34,337 nucleotides of DNA, taken from NCBI GenBank assembly GCA_002343425.1, contig DDSO01000131.1:21079-55415 (forward strand), given 5' to 3'. Below the pieces are notes generated by a model. That model saw nothing but the letters and a program-made list of their open reading frames with translations. It did not search any database and was not told where the DNA came from. The translations under genes were made by a program, and so were the position numbers. The stretch comes from Brevundimonas sp. UBA2388 (GTDB lineage: Bacteria > Pseudomonadota > Alphaproteobacteria > Caulobacterales > Caulobacteraceae). This document shows positions 15,440 through 20,661 of this stretch, piece after piece. Each line of letters opens with the position of its first letter. Positions within the stretch are counted from its first letter, which is position 1.

Positions 15440-16435
15440 ATGACGCCAATGATCCTGGCCGGCCTTGGGGCGTATGCCCCGCGTGAAACCCGGTCGTCGC
15501 AGGCGCTGGACGCCGTCTTCGCCCAACCGCCGGGCTGGACCGAAGCCCGGTTCGGCATCGTCTCCCGCGGTGTGGCGGCCCCGGACGAAACCACTTCGAT
15601 GATGGGGGCAGAGGCCGCAAGACGCGCCCTGGCGATGGCGGGCTGGGAGCCGGGCGACCTTGATGTGCTGATCGGCGCCTGCGGGGTCATGGAACAACCG
15701 ATTCCGGGCACGTCGGTGCTGATCCAGGATGCTTTGGGCCTCGGCCAGTCGGGCATCTGGGCCTTTGACGTCAACCAGACCTGCCTGTCCTTCGTCGCGG
15801 CGCTGGACGTCGCGGCCATGGGCTTCGCCACGGGACGGTTCCGCCGCGCCCTGATCGTGTCCAGCGATATCGCCTCGTGCGGACTGGACTGGGACACGCC
15901 CGCCTCCACCGCCATCTTCGGCGACGGCGCGGCGGCCGTGTGTGTCAAGGCCGGCGACGACCCCGACGGCCCCGGCCTGCTGGCCCGCAGTTTCGAAACC
16001 TATGGCGCGGGCAAGGACCTGGCCTCGATCCGCTCTGGCGGAACGCGCGTTCGACTGGACGACGGACTCGCAGCCTTCTCTGACGGCGCCCGCTTCCGGA
16101 TGGATCCGTTCGGCATCTTCAAGGCCGCGTCGAAAACCCTGCCCGCCCTGATCGACCGCGTGCTGGGCGAGGCCGGCCTGACCCGCGAGAGCGTCGATGT
16201 CATCGTCGGCCACCAGGCCAGCCGGCCCGCCATCGAACACGCCCGCCGGCTCATGGGCGGCGATCCGGACCGGGTCATCGACATCTTCGGCACGCGGGGA
16301 AACCAGATCGCCGCCTCCCTGCCCACGGTGCTGGTCGAGGCGCACGCGACGGGGCGGCTGGGCCCCGGCAAGACCGTATTGCTTCTGGGCACGGCGGCGG
16401 GCATCAGCCTCGCGGCCATGGTGCTGCGCACGTGA
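15440..16435 (+). CDS. 3-oxoacyl-ACP synthase III (KAS III/FabH-OleA-like) condensing enzyme
   Basis: This 331-residue thiolase-fold protein has the complete KAS III triad: Cys115 in DVNQTCLSF, His258 in VGHQASRPAIEH and Asn288 in GTRGNQIAASLP. GDGAAAV (161-167) is the usual structural loop. It should perform a decarboxylative or head-to-head Claisen condensation of acyl thioesters. The setting is not fatty-acid synthesis: no plsX, acpP or fab gene is adjacent. It leads a five-gene coupled operon with an SDR, an MBL hydrolase, an adenylating enzyme and an ATP-grasp ligase. This resembles the role of OleA in beta-ketoacid formation, but the sequence does not prove it. The start could be 15440 or the in-frame ATG at 15449; no clear ribosome-binding site separates them. 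The stop overlaps the next gene (GTGA). Confidence 0.88.
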   Translation: MTPMILAGLGAYAPRETRSSQALDAVFAQPPGWTEARFGIVSRGVAAPDETTSMMGAEAARRALAMAGWEPGDLDVLIGACGVMEQPIPGTSVLIQDALGLGQSGIWAFDVNQTCLSFVAALDVAAMGFATGRFRRALIVSSDIASCGLDWDTPASTAIFGDGAAAVCVKAGDDPDGPGLLARSFETYGAGKDLASIRSGGTRVRLDDGLAAFSDGARFRMDPFGIFKAASKTLPALIDRVLGEAGLTRESVDVIVGHQASRPAIEHARRLMGGDPDRVIDIFGTRGNQIAASLPTVLVEAHATGRLGPGKTVLLLGTAAGISLAAMVLRT

Positions 16436-17421
16436 GCCGGCGCGCGCTCGTTACCGGCGCGACCGGGGGCCTCGGCCTGACCCTGACGCAGGCCTTGCTG
16501 GACGACGGCTACACGGTGCGTGCCGCCGGACGCAGTCCGGTCGCCATCAAACGCCTCCGCGACATGGGCGCCGAAGCCATTGCGGGCGACCTGTTCGAAC
16601 TCGGCCCGGACGCCCTGTGCAGGGGCATCGACGTCGTCTTCCACGCCGCCGCCCTGTCCAGCCCCTGGGGGCCCGATGCCGACTTCCAGCGCGCCAACGT
16701 CGATCTGACCCGCGACCTGCTGGACGCTGCTGAGCGCTCCGGCGTCGGGTCGTTCGTCTTCGTCTCCTCCCCCTCGGTCTACGCCCGCTGGGCCGATCAA
16801 TCCGGTCTGACCGAAGACACGTCGTGGCCCGACCGCCCCCTGAACGCCTATTCCCGCACCAAGGGCGAGGCCGAGCGGCTGGTCCTCGCCGCCGATGCGC
16901 CGGGGTTCCGCACCGTCGCCATCCGCCCCCGCGCCATCATCGGACCCGACGACGCGGTCCTGCTGCCGCGCATCCTGCGGCTGGTGAAACGCGGGCGGTT
17001 CCCCCTGTTCCGCGACGGACGGGCCCTGGTCGAGATGACCGATGTGCGGGACGCGGCGCGCGCGATCCGGCTGGCCGACCTCCACCGAGAGGCGGCCGGC
17101 GGGCAGGCGATCAACATCACCGGCGGGCAGGCCCTGCCCGTCCGCGATCTCATCGATCGGCTCGCGCGGGCGCTCGATGTCGAGGTTCGCATCATCCCTG
17201 TGCCGCTCGCCCTCGGACAGGTGCTGTCGGTGGGGGCAGACGCCCTGTGCCGTATCCTCCCGGGACAACCCGAGCCGGTGCTGACGCCCTACACCCTGTC
17301 CACCCTGGCATGGTCGCAGACGTTCGACCTCGGCAAGGCCCGCCGCCTGCTGAGCTACGAACCCGCCCACGACGCGGTCGAGACGGCGCTGGCGGTCGCG
17401 CCGCGGCTGGCGGCGTCATGA
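16432..17421 (+). CDS. NAD(P)-dependent epimerase/dehydratase (extended SDR, 3-beta-HSD/OleD-like)
   Basis: This 329-residue Rossmann protein has the dinucleotide motif VTGATGGLG (residues 7-15), GDLFE for adenine contact, and FHAAALSSPWG. The catalytic residues are Ser112/113 in VFVSSPSVYA and Tyr140-x3-Lys144 in YSRTKGE. The pattern (IRPRAIIGPDD, VEMTDVRDAARAI, NITGG) matches the 3-beta-hydroxysteroid-dehydrogenase-like branch, which includes OleD, the 2-alkyl-3-ketoacid reductase. A plausible job is reducing the ketone made by the preceding condensing enzyme. The start is GTG at 16432, overlapping the upstream TGA as GTGA. The gene in turn ends within the next start as ATGA. Cofactor preference cannot be decided here. 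Confidence 0.87.
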   Translation: MSRRALVTGATGGLGLTLTQALLDDGYTVRAAGRSPVAIKRLRDMGAEAIAGDLFELGPDALCRGIDVVFHAAALSSPWGPDADFQRANVDLTRDLLDAAERSGVGSFVFVSSPSVYARWADQSGLTEDTSWPDRPLNAYSRTKGEAERLVLAADAPGFRTVAIRPRAIIGPDDAVLLPRILRLVKRGRFPLFRDGRALVEMTDVRDAARAIRLADLHREAAGGQAINITGGQALPVRDLIDRLARALDVEVRIIPVPLALGQVLSVGADALCRILPGQPEPVLTPYTLSTLAWSQTFDLGKARRLLSYEPAHDAVETALAVAPRLAAS

Positions 17422-18260
17422 AGCGCTGCCGCGTCCACATCCTGCGCGCCGGCGGCTGTTCGCATCCCGCCGTGATGACCCGCCGCGACGCGGGCCTGAC
17501 GCCGGCCGTCTTCCCCGCGCTCGCGGCCCTGATCGTCCATCCGGACGAAGGACCGATCCTGTTCGACACCGGCTACGACCCCGCCTTCTTCGCCGCCACC
17601 GAGCCCTTTCCGGAACGCCTCTACCGCTGGACAACGCCGGTCAGCCTTGAACCGGGACAGGCCGTCGCCGACCAGTTGCCGGCCTTCGGCCATTCGCCCG
17701 ACGAAATCCACGCCGTCGTCGTCTCCCACTTCCACGGCGACCACATCGCCGGCCTGACCCGCTTCTCCAAGGCCCGCATCTTCTGCGCCCGTGCCGGGCT
17801 GGCTGAGGTCAGACGCGCAGGCCGCGTCTCCCGCGTCCGCCGCGGGGTCCTGGCCGCCCTCGCCCCCGCCGACATCGACGCCCGCGCGGCCTTCTTCGAG
17901 GATCGGCCGCAGGTCGCGCTCGGCCCGGACATGGCCCCGTTCGAGACCGGCGCCGACCTGCTCGGCGACGGCTCCCTGCTGGCGGTGCAACTGCCCGGCC
18001 ACTGCCCCGGCCACTGGGGCCTTCTCGTCCGGCAGACCGACGATCGGACCCGCTTTCTGATCGCGGACGCAGCCTGGTCCAGCGGCGCCGTCCGCGACGA
18101 CGTCCCGCCGCCCCGCCTGACCACCGCCCTGCTCGGCCAGACCGTACCCTACCGCGAGACCCTCAACGCCCTGCACCGGCTGTGGACCCGCAACGCCGAG
18201 CTCGTTGTCACGCCGTCCCACTGCGGCGAGGTTGAGATCGAGACCGGCCGTGCAGACTGA
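17418..18260 (+). CDS. MBL-fold metallohydrolase (AHL-lactonase-like)
   Basis: This 280-residue metallo-beta-lactamase-fold protein has a full two-metal site: SHFHGDHIAGL supplies His104, His106, Asp108 and His109. PGHCPGHWGLL supplies His195 (and His199). FLIADAAW supplies Asp217, and TPSHCGE supplies His268. The order, spacing and the FDTGYDP and LPGHCPGH contexts resemble N-acyl-homoserine lactonases (AiiA type). A lactone or thioester is therefore a reasonable substrate class, though not demonstrated. No signal peptide is seen, so it is cytosolic. The ATG at 17418 overlaps the upstream stop (ATGA). The 3' end overlaps the next gene by 11 bases. Within the operon it could hydrolyse a lactone intermediate, release a thioester, or protect the host. 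Confidence 0.88.
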   Translation: MKRCRVHILRAGGCSHPAVMTRRDAGLTPAVFPALAALIVHPDEGPILFDTGYDPAFFAATEPFPERLYRWTTPVSLEPGQAVADQLPAFGHSPDEIHAVVVSHFHGDHIAGLTRFSKARIFCARAGLAEVRRAGRVSRVRRGVLAALAPADIDARAAFFEDRPQVALGPDMAPFETGADLLGDGSLLAVQLPGHCPGHWGLLVRQTDDRTRFLIADAAWSSGAVRDDVPPPRLTTALLGQTVPYRETLNALHRLWTRNAELVVTPSHCGEVEIETGRAD

Positions 18261-19500
18261 CCGGCTCGCGGTCCTGCGGGCCTGGCTCGGGGCCCGATGG
18301 AGCGGCTCGAGCTTGCGCACTGCGGCCGATGTCGCGCGGCGGCAGGGCCGGCTGTGGAGGGCCATGGGCCCCGTGGTCGCCTGCACGCCCGCGGTGAGCG
18401 CCCTCGCGGGTCGCCCGCTGGCGGACTACCCCGTCGTACGGCCCGAGGCCCTGCGCGACGGCTTCGATGACTGGAACACGCTCGGCCTGACACGATCTGA
18501 GACCGAGGCCGCCGCTCTGGCCGGAGAGACCGGCGGATCAGGCGAGGTCCGACCGGGGATCGTCGCCGGCTTTTCTTCAGGCTCATCGGGACGGCCCGGG
18601 CTGTTCGTGACCAGCGCCGCCGAGCGCGCCGGCTGGGTCGGCCATATCCTCGCCCGCCTGCTGCCCGCCGACACCCTGCTGCGCCCCACGCGGATCGCCC
18701 TGTGCCTGCGCGCCGACAACCGGCTGTATGGTGATGTGGAGAGGGCGGGCCCGATCCGGTTCCTGTTTGTCGGACTCGATGTTCCGGCGCCCGAGCGGTT
18801 CGAGCGGTTGCGCGCCTTCGCCCCCGATGTGCTGATCGCCCCGACCCAGGTGCTGGCCGACCTCGCCCGCCGCACCGACAAGCCATGGCCCCTGCACCGC
18901 CTCTTCTACGGCGCCGAGCCGATGGGCGAGGCCGAGAGGGGCTGGATCACGACGGCCCTCGGCGCCCGCCCCGACCCCATCTATCAGGCCACCGAAGGTT
19001 TCCTCGGCGCCGCCTGCCCCCTCGGAGCCCTGCACCTCAACGAGGACGTCCTGATCATCGAGCGCGAACCCGTGCCGGGGACCAATCGCTTCCTGCCGAT
19101 CGTCACCGACCTGCGCCGCACCACCCAGCCGATGATCCGCATCCGCCTGCCCGACCTGCTGGAGCCGCTGGCGGCGCCCTGCCCCTGTGGCTCGCCGCTG
19201 ACGGCCGTCCATTCCGTTGAGGGCCGGCTGGACGATCTGTGGCGCTGGCCCGGCGCCGTGATCTGCCCGCGGGAGGTCGAGGCTGCCGCCAGCGCCGCCC
19301 TCGGCCCGGAGCAGGACTGGCGTGCGGTCGCCACGCCGGGCGGGGTCACGGTCGAGGCCGATCCGGATCGGGTCGAAGTCGCCCGATCGGCCGTGGCGAC
19401 CCTGCTGGCGGCGCACGGCGTGGAGGCGCCGGCCACCGCTGGCGGCCAGCCGAAGCAGGACGACATCAAACGGCGGCGGGTGCGCTGGTCCGATGGCTGA
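18250..19500 (+). CDS. Adenylate-forming enzyme, F390/CoF synthetase-related
   Basis: This 416-residue protein belongs to the ANL-type adenylate-forming enzymes close to 'F390 synthetase-related' proteins. The ATP-binding loop is FSSGSSGRPG (about residues 108-117). YQATEGFLG (245-253) is the A5-like motif, and TDLRR (286-290) contains the ribose-binding Asp. A CPCG pair (311-314) could bind metal or be structural. A Lys/Arg-rich end (DIKRRRVRW) may carry the C-terminal lysine. It should activate a carboxylate as acyl-AMP. No acyl-carrier protein gene is nearby. A start at 18205 would overlap the upstream gene by 56 bases. The GTG at 18250 gives a modest 11-base overlap and is preferred. Confidence 0.83.
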   Translation: MQTDRLAVLRAWLGARWSGSSLRTAADVARRQGRLWRAMGPVVACTPAVSALAGRPLADYPVVRPEALRDGFDDWNTLGLTRSETEAAALAGETGGSGEVRPGIVAGFSSGSSGRPGLFVTSAAERAGWVGHILARLLPADTLLRPTRIALCLRADNRLYGDVERAGPIRFLFVGLDVPAPERFERLRAFAPDVLIAPTQVLADLARRTDKPWPLHRLFYGAEPMGEAERGWITTALGARPDPIYQATEGFLGAACPLGALHLNEDVLIIEREPVPGTNRFLPIVTDLRRTTQPMIRIRLPDLLEPLAAPCPCGSPLTAVHSVEGRLDDLWRWPGAVICPREVEAAASAALGPEQDWRAVATPGGVTVEADPDRVEVARSAVATLLAAHGVEAPATAGGQPKQDDIKRRRVRWSDG

Positions 19501-20653
19501 GCGGGTCCTGATCACCGGCGCCCGGTCCGTGGCGGCGCTGGACATCGCCCGCAGCCTGCGCGCCGCCGGCTATGAGCCGCATCTGGCCGACTGCAGCCCG
19601 GCCTGGGTAGCCCGCCTGTCCTGTACAGCCGGTCCGGTGCATCGCCATGCCTCGCCGGTGGCGCAGCCTGCCGATTTCGCCAGCGACATCCGCGGCCTGA
19701 TCGACCGGCTCGATCCCGTGCGCATCATCCCCACCTGCGAAGAGGTGTTCCACCTCGCCGCCCTGGCGGAGGCTGACGGCTTTTCCGACCGGGTGTTCGC
19801 CCCACCGCCGGACCGGCTGGCGAACCTGCATGCCAAGGACCGGTTCGCCGCACTGGGCCGCAGCCTCTCCCTGCCGGTCCCCGACACCACAATGGTCACC
19901 GATCGGGCGGCGCTGGAGGCCTTCCCGGGCGAGGCGGCGGACCATGTGTTCAAACCGGTCTGGTCGCGCTTCGGCGCCCGTACCCTGATCGCACCCGACC
20001 CTTCGGAACTCGCCGCCCTCGCGCCGTCGCCCGATGCGCCCTGGGTGGCCCAGCGCCGGATCGTGGGCGAGGAGGTCAGCTTCTACGCCGTCTGCCATGA
20101 GGGTCGTGTCGCCGCCTTCTGCGCCTACGGTTCCGACTGGCGACTGCCCGGCGGGGCCAGCTACGTGTTCCGCCCCCTGTCAGCGGACCAGACGGCGCGG
20201 CTGCGGCCCATGGCCGACGCCCTGGCCGCCTTTGCCGGGACCGGCCAGATCGCCTGTGACGCCATCATCGACGCTGACAGACAGCCCTGGCTGATCGAGT
20301 GCAATCCGCGGGCGACCAGCGGCGTCCATCTGTTCGGGCGCAGCGCCACCTTCGGTCAGGCTCTCATGGCCCGGGGTCAGGCCGGACCGGCCGCCGGTGC
20401 CCGCCAACTTTCCACGGCCCTCTGGCTACACGGCCTGCCCATCGCCCTGCGGGACGGACGGCTTGCAGCCTGGCGCGCGCATCGACAGCAAGGGTCAGAC
20501 GCCGTGGGCGCTCCCGGCGACCGTCTGCCGGTATTCGGCGCGCTCGCCGACGCCGCCGCCTTCGGCCTGCGCGCGCTCAGATCAGGCCTCCCCCTCACCG
20601 AGGCCATGACCGTGGACATCGAGTGGAACGGCCGGCCGTTCGATCGCGACTAG
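19493..20653 (+). CDS. ATP-grasp domain protein (putative carboxylate-amine ligase)
   Basis: This 386-residue protein has the ATP-grasp order. An N-terminal pre-ATP-grasp Rossmann-like domain (VLITGARSVAALDIARSLRAAGYEP) comes first. Lys115 and Asp116 in HAKDRFA and Lys154 in VFKPVWSRFG are candidate ATP contacts. The metal-binding segment is IACDAIID followed by WLIECNPRATSG, with Asp256, Glu269 and Asn271. Known relatives ligate a carboxylate to an amine through acyl-phosphate. The ATG at 19493 overlaps the upstream gene by 8 bases, making it the last gene of the coupled operon. It converges on the GST gene with an 8-base gap. The substrate is unknown; the context suggests coupling an amino compound to the pathway's acid product. 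Confidence 0.84.
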   Translation: MAERVLITGARSVAALDIARSLRAAGYEPHLADCSPAWVARLSCTAGPVHRHASPVAQPADFASDIRGLIDRLDPVRIIPTCEEVFHLAALAEADGFSDRVFAPPPDRLANLHAKDRFAALGRSLSLPVPDTTMVTDRAALEAFPGEAADHVFKPVWSRFGARTLIAPDPSELAALAPSPDAPWVAQRRIVGEEVSFYAVCHEGRVAAFCAYGSDWRLPGGASYVFRPLSADQTARLRPMADALAAFAGTGQIACDAIIDADRQPWLIECNPRATSGVHLFGRSATFGQALMARGQAGPAAGARQLSTALWLHGLPIALRDGRLAAWRAHRQQGSDAVGAPGDRLPVFGALADAAAFGLRALRSGLPLTEAMTVDIEWNGRPFDRD

Positions 20654-20661
20654 ACCGACCC

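Follow-up and report, generated by a model that had tools for sequence, protein, structure and literature searches.

What does the run of five overlapping genes at positions 15440-20653 of a stretch of Brevundimonas sp. UBA2388 DNA make, and do the five genes belong together? The window, by which we mean the whole 34,337-nucleotide stretch that was analysed, covers positions 21079-55415 of its contig (DDSO01000131.1), in an assembly of 163 contigs with a completeness of 87.6% (GCA_002343425.1). An initial annotation, made from the letters alone, had read the genes as an operon for an acyl-derived metabolite with steps like those of OleA, OleD and OleC. Our analyses support the view that this is a conserved biosynthetic operon and a member of a widespread, apparently uncharacterised family. 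We propose, with a probability of about 0.5, that it encodes a pathway that condenses, reduces, releases, adenylates and ligates an acyl chain to give an acyl conjugate, with the gene order following the chemistry.

The features of the locus are as follows.

15440..16435, + strand: KAS III-like ketosynthase (KS), 331 aa; Cys115-His258-Asn288; PF08541, PF08545
16432..17421, + strand: OleD-like short-chain dehydrogenase/reductase (SDR), 329 aa; Ser112, Tyr140, Lys144; PF01370, PF01073
17418..18260, + strand: metallo-beta-lactamase-fold hydrolase (MBL), lactonase-like, 280 aa; PF00753
18250..19500, + strand: stand-alone PaaK-type adenylating enzyme (AMP), 416 aa; TIGR02304-related, PaaK-type model
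19493..20653, + strand: ATP-grasp ligase, 386 aa; PRK06849 match under the cut-off, ATP-grasp model
20654..20661, no strand: short spacer ahead of a convergent glutathione S-transferase (GST) gene; position of a Rieske oxygenase gene in sister Brevundimonas loci

Four core genes travel together

The genes for KS, SDR, MBL and AMP, which are adjacent in the window (15440-19500), are found together in many other genomes. We scanned named genomes and obtained 352 matching stretches, 343 of which encode AMP relatives, and analysed the best 80; these were picked by AMP similarity, and the counts are not estimates of natural frequency. KS was present within 9 kb of AMP at 79 loci, SDR at 77, MBL at 76, and the complete set of four at 75. 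Co-occurrence of the families, which the initial annotation had named as a check on its reading, was thus borne out. The idea of a conserved operon stands; that of a fixed set of five does not, as the ATP-grasp gene was near only 48 of the 80 cores.

Draws from narrower groups gave a similar picture. Among 200 Caulobacterales genomes, 29 had a TIGR02304 match at E<=1e-3 and 20, the window's included, at E<=1e-50; KS, SDR and MBL lay beside AMP in the fetched stretch of all 19 others at the stricter threshold. A draw from the phylum had a TIGR02304 match in 39 of 299 genomes, and the core was present in all six others scoring >150 bits. Within Brevundimonas, KS was detected at E<=1e-60 in 18 of 131 genomes, the window's included (17/130 others). 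We fetched 14 of these loci: SDR, MBL and AMP were found in 14/14 and the ligase in 12, the other two stopping at a contig edge. At one of the six phylum-draw loci (L049:4853-5991), the SDR similarity is split over two overlapping frames, resembling a frameshift or sequencing error.

The pairwise identities of the four core proteins correlate across 72 loci and the window (r 0.84-0.93; maximum of 200 permutations 0.14), a correlation that also reflects shared host descent. Of the five named loci without the full core, three are from Asticcacaulis (L086, L089, L091); SDR and MBL are missing there, and each genome carries an adjacent SDR-MBL pair elsewhere, which argues that the four core genes serve one function.

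Some loci do not fit a fixed unit. Two of nine weaker Caulobacterales TIGR02304 matches were examined (L025, L026) and had neither KS nor MBL, and in a class-wide draw the only KS match at E<=1e-45 among 288 other genomes (L178) had KS and MBL alone.

The five genes overlap and are under purifying selection

All five genes are intact open reading frames on the + strand, and the four successive overlaps of 4, 4, 11 and 8 bases are as originally reported. The KS/SDR junction is GTGA and the SDR/MBL junction is ATGA. The 11-base MBL/AMP overlap assumes a GTG start at 18250, and the AMP frame is open back to a TTG at 18205; AMP and ligase share the remaining 8 bases. We computed junctions in 12 related loci. 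All four five-gene Brevundimonas loci of that set (L072, L077-L079) share the window's overlaps of 4, 4, 11 and 8 bases, L075 and L081 have 4, 4, 14 and 8, and those of the other six vary. The L063 junctions are gaps of 2, 43 and 346 bases (with starts that we called ourselves), and two junctions of L059 were left out of the comparison. The overlaps suggest coupled translation, as had been claimed; the further claim that the proteins are made in equal amounts goes too far.

All five genes are under purifying selection. Compared with L070-L072 and L077-L079, dN/dS was 0.11-0.18 for KS, 0.13-0.19 for SDR, 0.11-0.15 for MBL, 0.21-0.29 for AMP and 0.18-0.31 for the ligase; against the more distant L068, L075 and L081 it rose to as much as 0.44.

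The ketosynthase lies outside the FabH clade

KS is not the housekeeping FabH of this genome. It scored 173.7 bits against the FabH model TIGR00747 (cut-off 292.1) and 318.4 bits against PRK07204 (cut-off 402). A separate FabH, to which KS is 29% identical, scored 399.3 bits against the same FabH cut-off and is encoded in an apparent plsX-fabH-ihfA locus (plsX and ihfA being labelled from their translations, not scanned). In a tree of 80 ketosynthase rows, the cluster KS and MxnB grouped together with support of 98/97, and the FabH clade stood apart at 99/98. This tree has one MxnB-type row, few FabH rows and many cluster KS, and the MxnB and OleA rows are long branches, MxnB lying next to L099 and L118. 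KS therefore groups with MxnB, apart from both FabH and OleA. This placement is unlike that in the available part of PMC4578411, which puts MxnB and CorB within the FabH clade. We rejected a FabH identity because KS is outside the clade and under the cut-off, and because the genome has a separate fabH. The initial annotation had said that a KS inside the FabH clade, in a genome with no other fabH, would count against its reading; this is not the case here.

The Cys-His-Asn triad of KS is conserved, and the glutamate of OleA is replaced. The triad is retained in 102/102 cluster KS rows, which were not thinned for redundancy. The position of the OleA/PpyS glutamate is Ile88 in the window KS; it is I, L, V or M in all of these 102 rows, Val in MxnB, Phe in 8/8 FabH sequences, and Glu in an OleA-family control (L164, n=1). 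Against PRK09258 (NF006720), our proxy for the OleA family, KS scored 96.8 bits, far from the cut-off of 285. The nearest solved chains are MxnB (4v2p), with 35% identity, and CorB (4yuc).

The remaining four enzymes

The protein families originally named were confirmed, by Pfam matches for the KAS III, SDR and MBL proteins and by predicted models for the PaaK-type and ATP-grasp folds. SDR is of the epimerase/3beta-hydroxysteroid dehydrogenase type in Pfam, and its top-scoring NCBIfam family is OleD (NF042422), at 173.5 bits, well below the membership cut-off of 580. Its Ser112, Tyr140 and Lys144, which we take to be the catalytic triad, were invariant in 15/15 aligned sequences. The best solved relatives of MBL are N-acylhomoserine lactonases, and His104, His106, Asp108, His109, His195 and Asp217 were invariant in 19/19. 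Nothing supports the proposal that MBL takes the place of OleB; the third protein is PF00753, not an alpha/beta-hydrolase.

AMP and the ligase had no Pfam match at 1e-3, PF00501 included. AMP scored 194.7 bits against TIGR02304 ('F390 synthetase-related'), under the cut-off of 251.9, compared with 755.5 bits for the AMP of the E. coli cluster. Its predicted model (pLDDT 93.3) has a PaaK-type fold with adenylation motifs. The top Foldseek matches were PaaK-family ligases (NatL2 6six/6tm4, AjiA1 and PaaK1; E down to 7.4e-21), and the ATEG motif and Lys407 were invariant in 42/42. Close AMP homologues are partly labelled 'cell division protein FtsA' in NCBI and UniRef, an apparent naming error.

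The ligase had no PDB match by sequence profile. Its predicted model (pLDDT 94.7) is an ATP-grasp fold that resembles L-amino acid ligase, PurD, PurK and PylC, and the protein has a conserved acidic ECNPR motif, presumably for Mg binding. Fold and motif together are those of an ATP-grasp carboxylate-amine ligase.

The core is combined with different add-on genes

The full core was seen in eight phyla (Pseudomonadota, Verrucomicrobiota, Campylobacterota, Elusimicrobiota, Melainabacteria, Bacillota, Actinomycetota and Fusobacteriota), although several of these records are metagenome bins or plasmid-labelled and single placements may be wrong. Its most common order is KS-SDR-MBL-AMP. The accompanying genes differ, and may be ATP-grasp, GNAT, Rieske oxygenase, glycosyltransferase, or a set of PAP2, fatty-acid hydroxylase and desaturase. 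In the best 80 named loci, with the same 9-kb limit around AMP, we counted the ligase at 48, a GNAT-like protein (X) at 30, Rieske at 34 and glycosyltransferase at 12. The GNAT-like label follows NCBI naming; PF13480 was found in two of the four plasmid members tested, and four Caulobacterales members had no Pfam match. Six loci (L018, L019, L021, L028, L029, L030) have a core without ATP-grasp and a glycosyltransferase gene directly 3' of AMP. A core of four genes, joined by one add-on out of several, describes the unit better than a fixed set of five.

The cluster is present in 672 of 5,426 complete E. coli genomes (671 with >=80% of the query), between narGHJI and the tRNA-Tyr/purU region. 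On the chromosome of E. coli UPEC 26-1 (L149:3001-9882), the core is followed by PAP2, FA_hydroxylase and FA_desaturase genes and there is no ATP-grasp; L051 and L121 have this tail after their core as well. The lipid-modifying tail of the E. coli cluster suggests a lipid-like substrate. Plasmid copies of the cluster exist. The KS of L059 (one of the Halomonas/Vreelandella loci L059-L062) groups with that of L063 (Erythrobacter) at 100/89, and this sequence grouping suggests transfer of the cluster between classes.

We looked for further partners by an all-versus-all comparison of 3,952 frames around up to 93 loci. There was no carrier-like frame among them by a crude motif pattern, which is a weak test. 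Flank synteny or antisense shadows accounted for most, though not all, of the recurrent families. By labels taken from translations, not scanned, other recurrent neighbours were PAP2-like (6 loci), TetR-like (6 loci), an ABC-transporter ATPase (11 loci) and another glycosyltransferase-like gene (5 loci: L096, L099, L115, L116, L133). The absence of a carrier protein, regulator or transporter, as originally stated, holds for the five genes of the window; the TetR-like and ABC ATPase neighbours indicate that regulators and transporters can adjoin the cluster elsewhere.

The form of the operon in the window

The window lacks the Rieske gene found in some of its relatives. The downstream side could be read at 11 of the fetched Brevundimonas loci: six have a Rieske gene 3' of the ligase, and the other five, like the window, have none; GNAT-like X was not found in the window or in these loci. 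Among environmental species, B. denitrificans (L070) and B. lenta (L075) carry the cluster, the latter with a Rieske gene. The simplest reading of the Rieske absence is one loss in one clade, with the remaining five genes still selected. Searching the window genome for Rieske gave four matches, the two longest having ~31-32% identity over 101 and 174 residues, which is partial similarity only; at 87.6% completeness, absence from the genome is not proof. An apparent Rieske match on the window contig was rejected, as it was the ligase region hit by extra leader residues of the query.

The operon is preceded by RNase R, DUF4424 and Nudix genes and is followed by convergent GST and nucleoside-transporter genes. 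In L072 and L079, ~6-7 kb of other genes separates the ligase from GST (L072:12480-19341, L079:5151-11180); by their translations these encode MoxR-like and membrane proteins, look unrelated, and were rejected as extra cluster genes. A promoter and terminator scan gave no sigma-70-like site and one terminator-like site, a count not above that in shuffled sequence. We also rejected a phage or defence origin: KS, AMP and the ligase had no PHROGs match, and none of the five had a PADLOC match.

A proposed pathway and its alternatives

From the gene set and its linkage, the conserved catalytic residues, the predicted folds of the fourth and fifth proteins, purifying selection and the exchange of add-ons, we infer substrates, step order and product as follows. 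KS would load an acyl chain onto Cys115 and condense it with another acyl thioester; the host would provide the carrier protein, and the result would be a beta-keto product. The OleD-like SDR would reduce the keto group to a hydroxyl, and MBL would cut a thioester or lactone and free the acid. The PaaK-type AMP would convert the acid to an acyl-adenylate and hand it to an alcohol, an amine or CoA, and the ATP-grasp ligase would add one more bond, probably an amide to an amino acid or amine. The end product would be a beta-hydroxy-acyl conjugate, a lipid-like amide or ester. Other lineages would use the core to supply other finishing sets.

Several observations weigh against this pathway. The ligase gene is second in Paenibacillus, Pontibacillus, Clostridium, Elusimicrobiales and others, and the order is SDR-MBL-AMP-KS in Streptococcus, Jonesia, Fusobacterium and L099; gene order as a guide to chemistry is thus not general. 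On plasmids L143 and L144, AMP and the ligase occur with neither KS nor SDR, and MBL was not detected at L118. In the phylum draw, two of six strong PRK06849 matches (L045, L048) had no core in the fetched stretch, and a Deinococcus plasmid (L148:7995-10243) has an ATP-grasp and GNAT pair with no core nearby, which may be a module of its own. The MBL and SDR families span many activities, and AMP may also act as an acyl-CoA ligase.

Two other schemes would use the same enzymes differently. An Ole-type pathway would fit the joint occurrence of a ketosynthase, a reductase matching OleD best and an adenylating enzyme, as well as the lactonase-like MBL, and in the available part of PMC7064751, OleACD clusters are reported that also hold glycosyltransferase and oxygenase genes. 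The parallel with OleA, OleD and OleC holds as logic; membership in OleABCD fails on the KS residue, the scores and the AMP family. Ile88 stands at OleA Glu117, called essential in that part of PMC7064751, AMP is PaaK-like, every Ole score is far below its cut-off, and ATP-grasp and GNAT add-ons are unsuited to a hydrocarbon product. We consider an Ole-type pathway unlikely. Given the kinship of KS with MxnB, a competing scheme to condensation with malonyl-ACP (acyl carrier protein) is that two beta-ketoacyl chains are joined: KS would fuse two beta-ketoacyl thioesters into a pyrone or ring precursor, SDR would reduce it and MBL open it, and adenylation would follow. The tree and the nearest solved chains agree with such a scheme, and MxnB, which like the window KS lacks the OleA glutamate, performs this fusion without it according to the part of PMC5724707 available. 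The identity to MxnB is low, however, MxnB is a long branch in the tree, and a finished pyrone needs no reductase, hydrolase or adenylating enzyme, and we give this scheme little credence.

The operon might instead be an auxiliary fatty-acid or membrane-lipid route, with an extra FabH-like initiation and acyl activation, that alters bulk lipids and yields no discrete specialised metabolite. Five genes without a transporter, regulator or resistance gene would be in keeping with this, as would the resemblance of the E. coli tail to lipid modification. However, presence is patchy in Brevundimonas, E. coli and the class-wide draw alike, exchange of add-ons and plasmid copies are typical of accessory functions, and the genome has its own fabH. 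We judge such a route very improbable.

A broader reading, which we put forward tentatively and at slightly short of even odds, is that the core may be an undescribed pan-bacterial assembly line without its own carrier protein. It would make a new class of acyl lipid or signal, with at least five interchangeable finishing modules across lineages (Brevundimonas, Akkermansia-like, Fusobacterium and ~1 in 8 complete E. coli). If the core is one conserved chemistry, identifying one product in a tractable host would account for the loci of all eight phyla; their hosts include gut-associated bacteria and E. coli (12% of complete genomes), and present annotations of the core genes there do not go beyond 'F390 synthetase-related', 'MBL fold' or 'hypothetical'. 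The swapped add-ons (ligase, acyltransferase, oxygenase, glycosyltransferase and lipid-modifying set) would then be a natural comparison of the roles of finishing enzymes.

Comparison with known systems

Curated libraries name individual parts and give no function for the set. Searches of open-licence PMC papers aimed at the cluster turned up no account of it, and F390 synthetase is named just incidentally in passages from some of the papers retrieved; this scope did not extend to subscription papers, MIBiG or antiSMASH, and the cluster may have been described elsewhere.

The stand-alone PaaK-family ligases NatL2, AjiA1 and ClxA act on aromatic acids in benzoxazole-type pathways. They resemble AMP in whole-protein fold (TM-score ~0.66-0.69 for NatL2 and AjiA1) and differ in sequence, with identity of only ~15-22%.

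The OleABCD olefin and OleACD beta-lactone systems are similar to the window operon in clustering a ketosynthase, an OleD-like reductase and an adenylating enzyme. They differ in that the OleA route relies on a catalytic glutamate (PMC7064751, in the part available) that the window KS lacks, and in that the window has a PaaK-type AMP, an MBL instead of OleB or nothing, and an extra ATP-grasp ligase. MxnB and CorB, from myxopyronin and corallopyronin biosynthesis, are the closest solved KS relatives, with similar Gln-x-aliphatic-Pro surroundings and no catalytic glutamate. MxnB is part of a polyketide synthase assembly line (PMC5724707, in the part available), whereas the window KS is encoded with four other enzymes and no carrier protein. 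The E. coli TIGR02304 cluster matches the window in its four core genes and their order, with a KS 38% identical to that of the window, and differs in having a lipid-modifying tail and no ATP-grasp.

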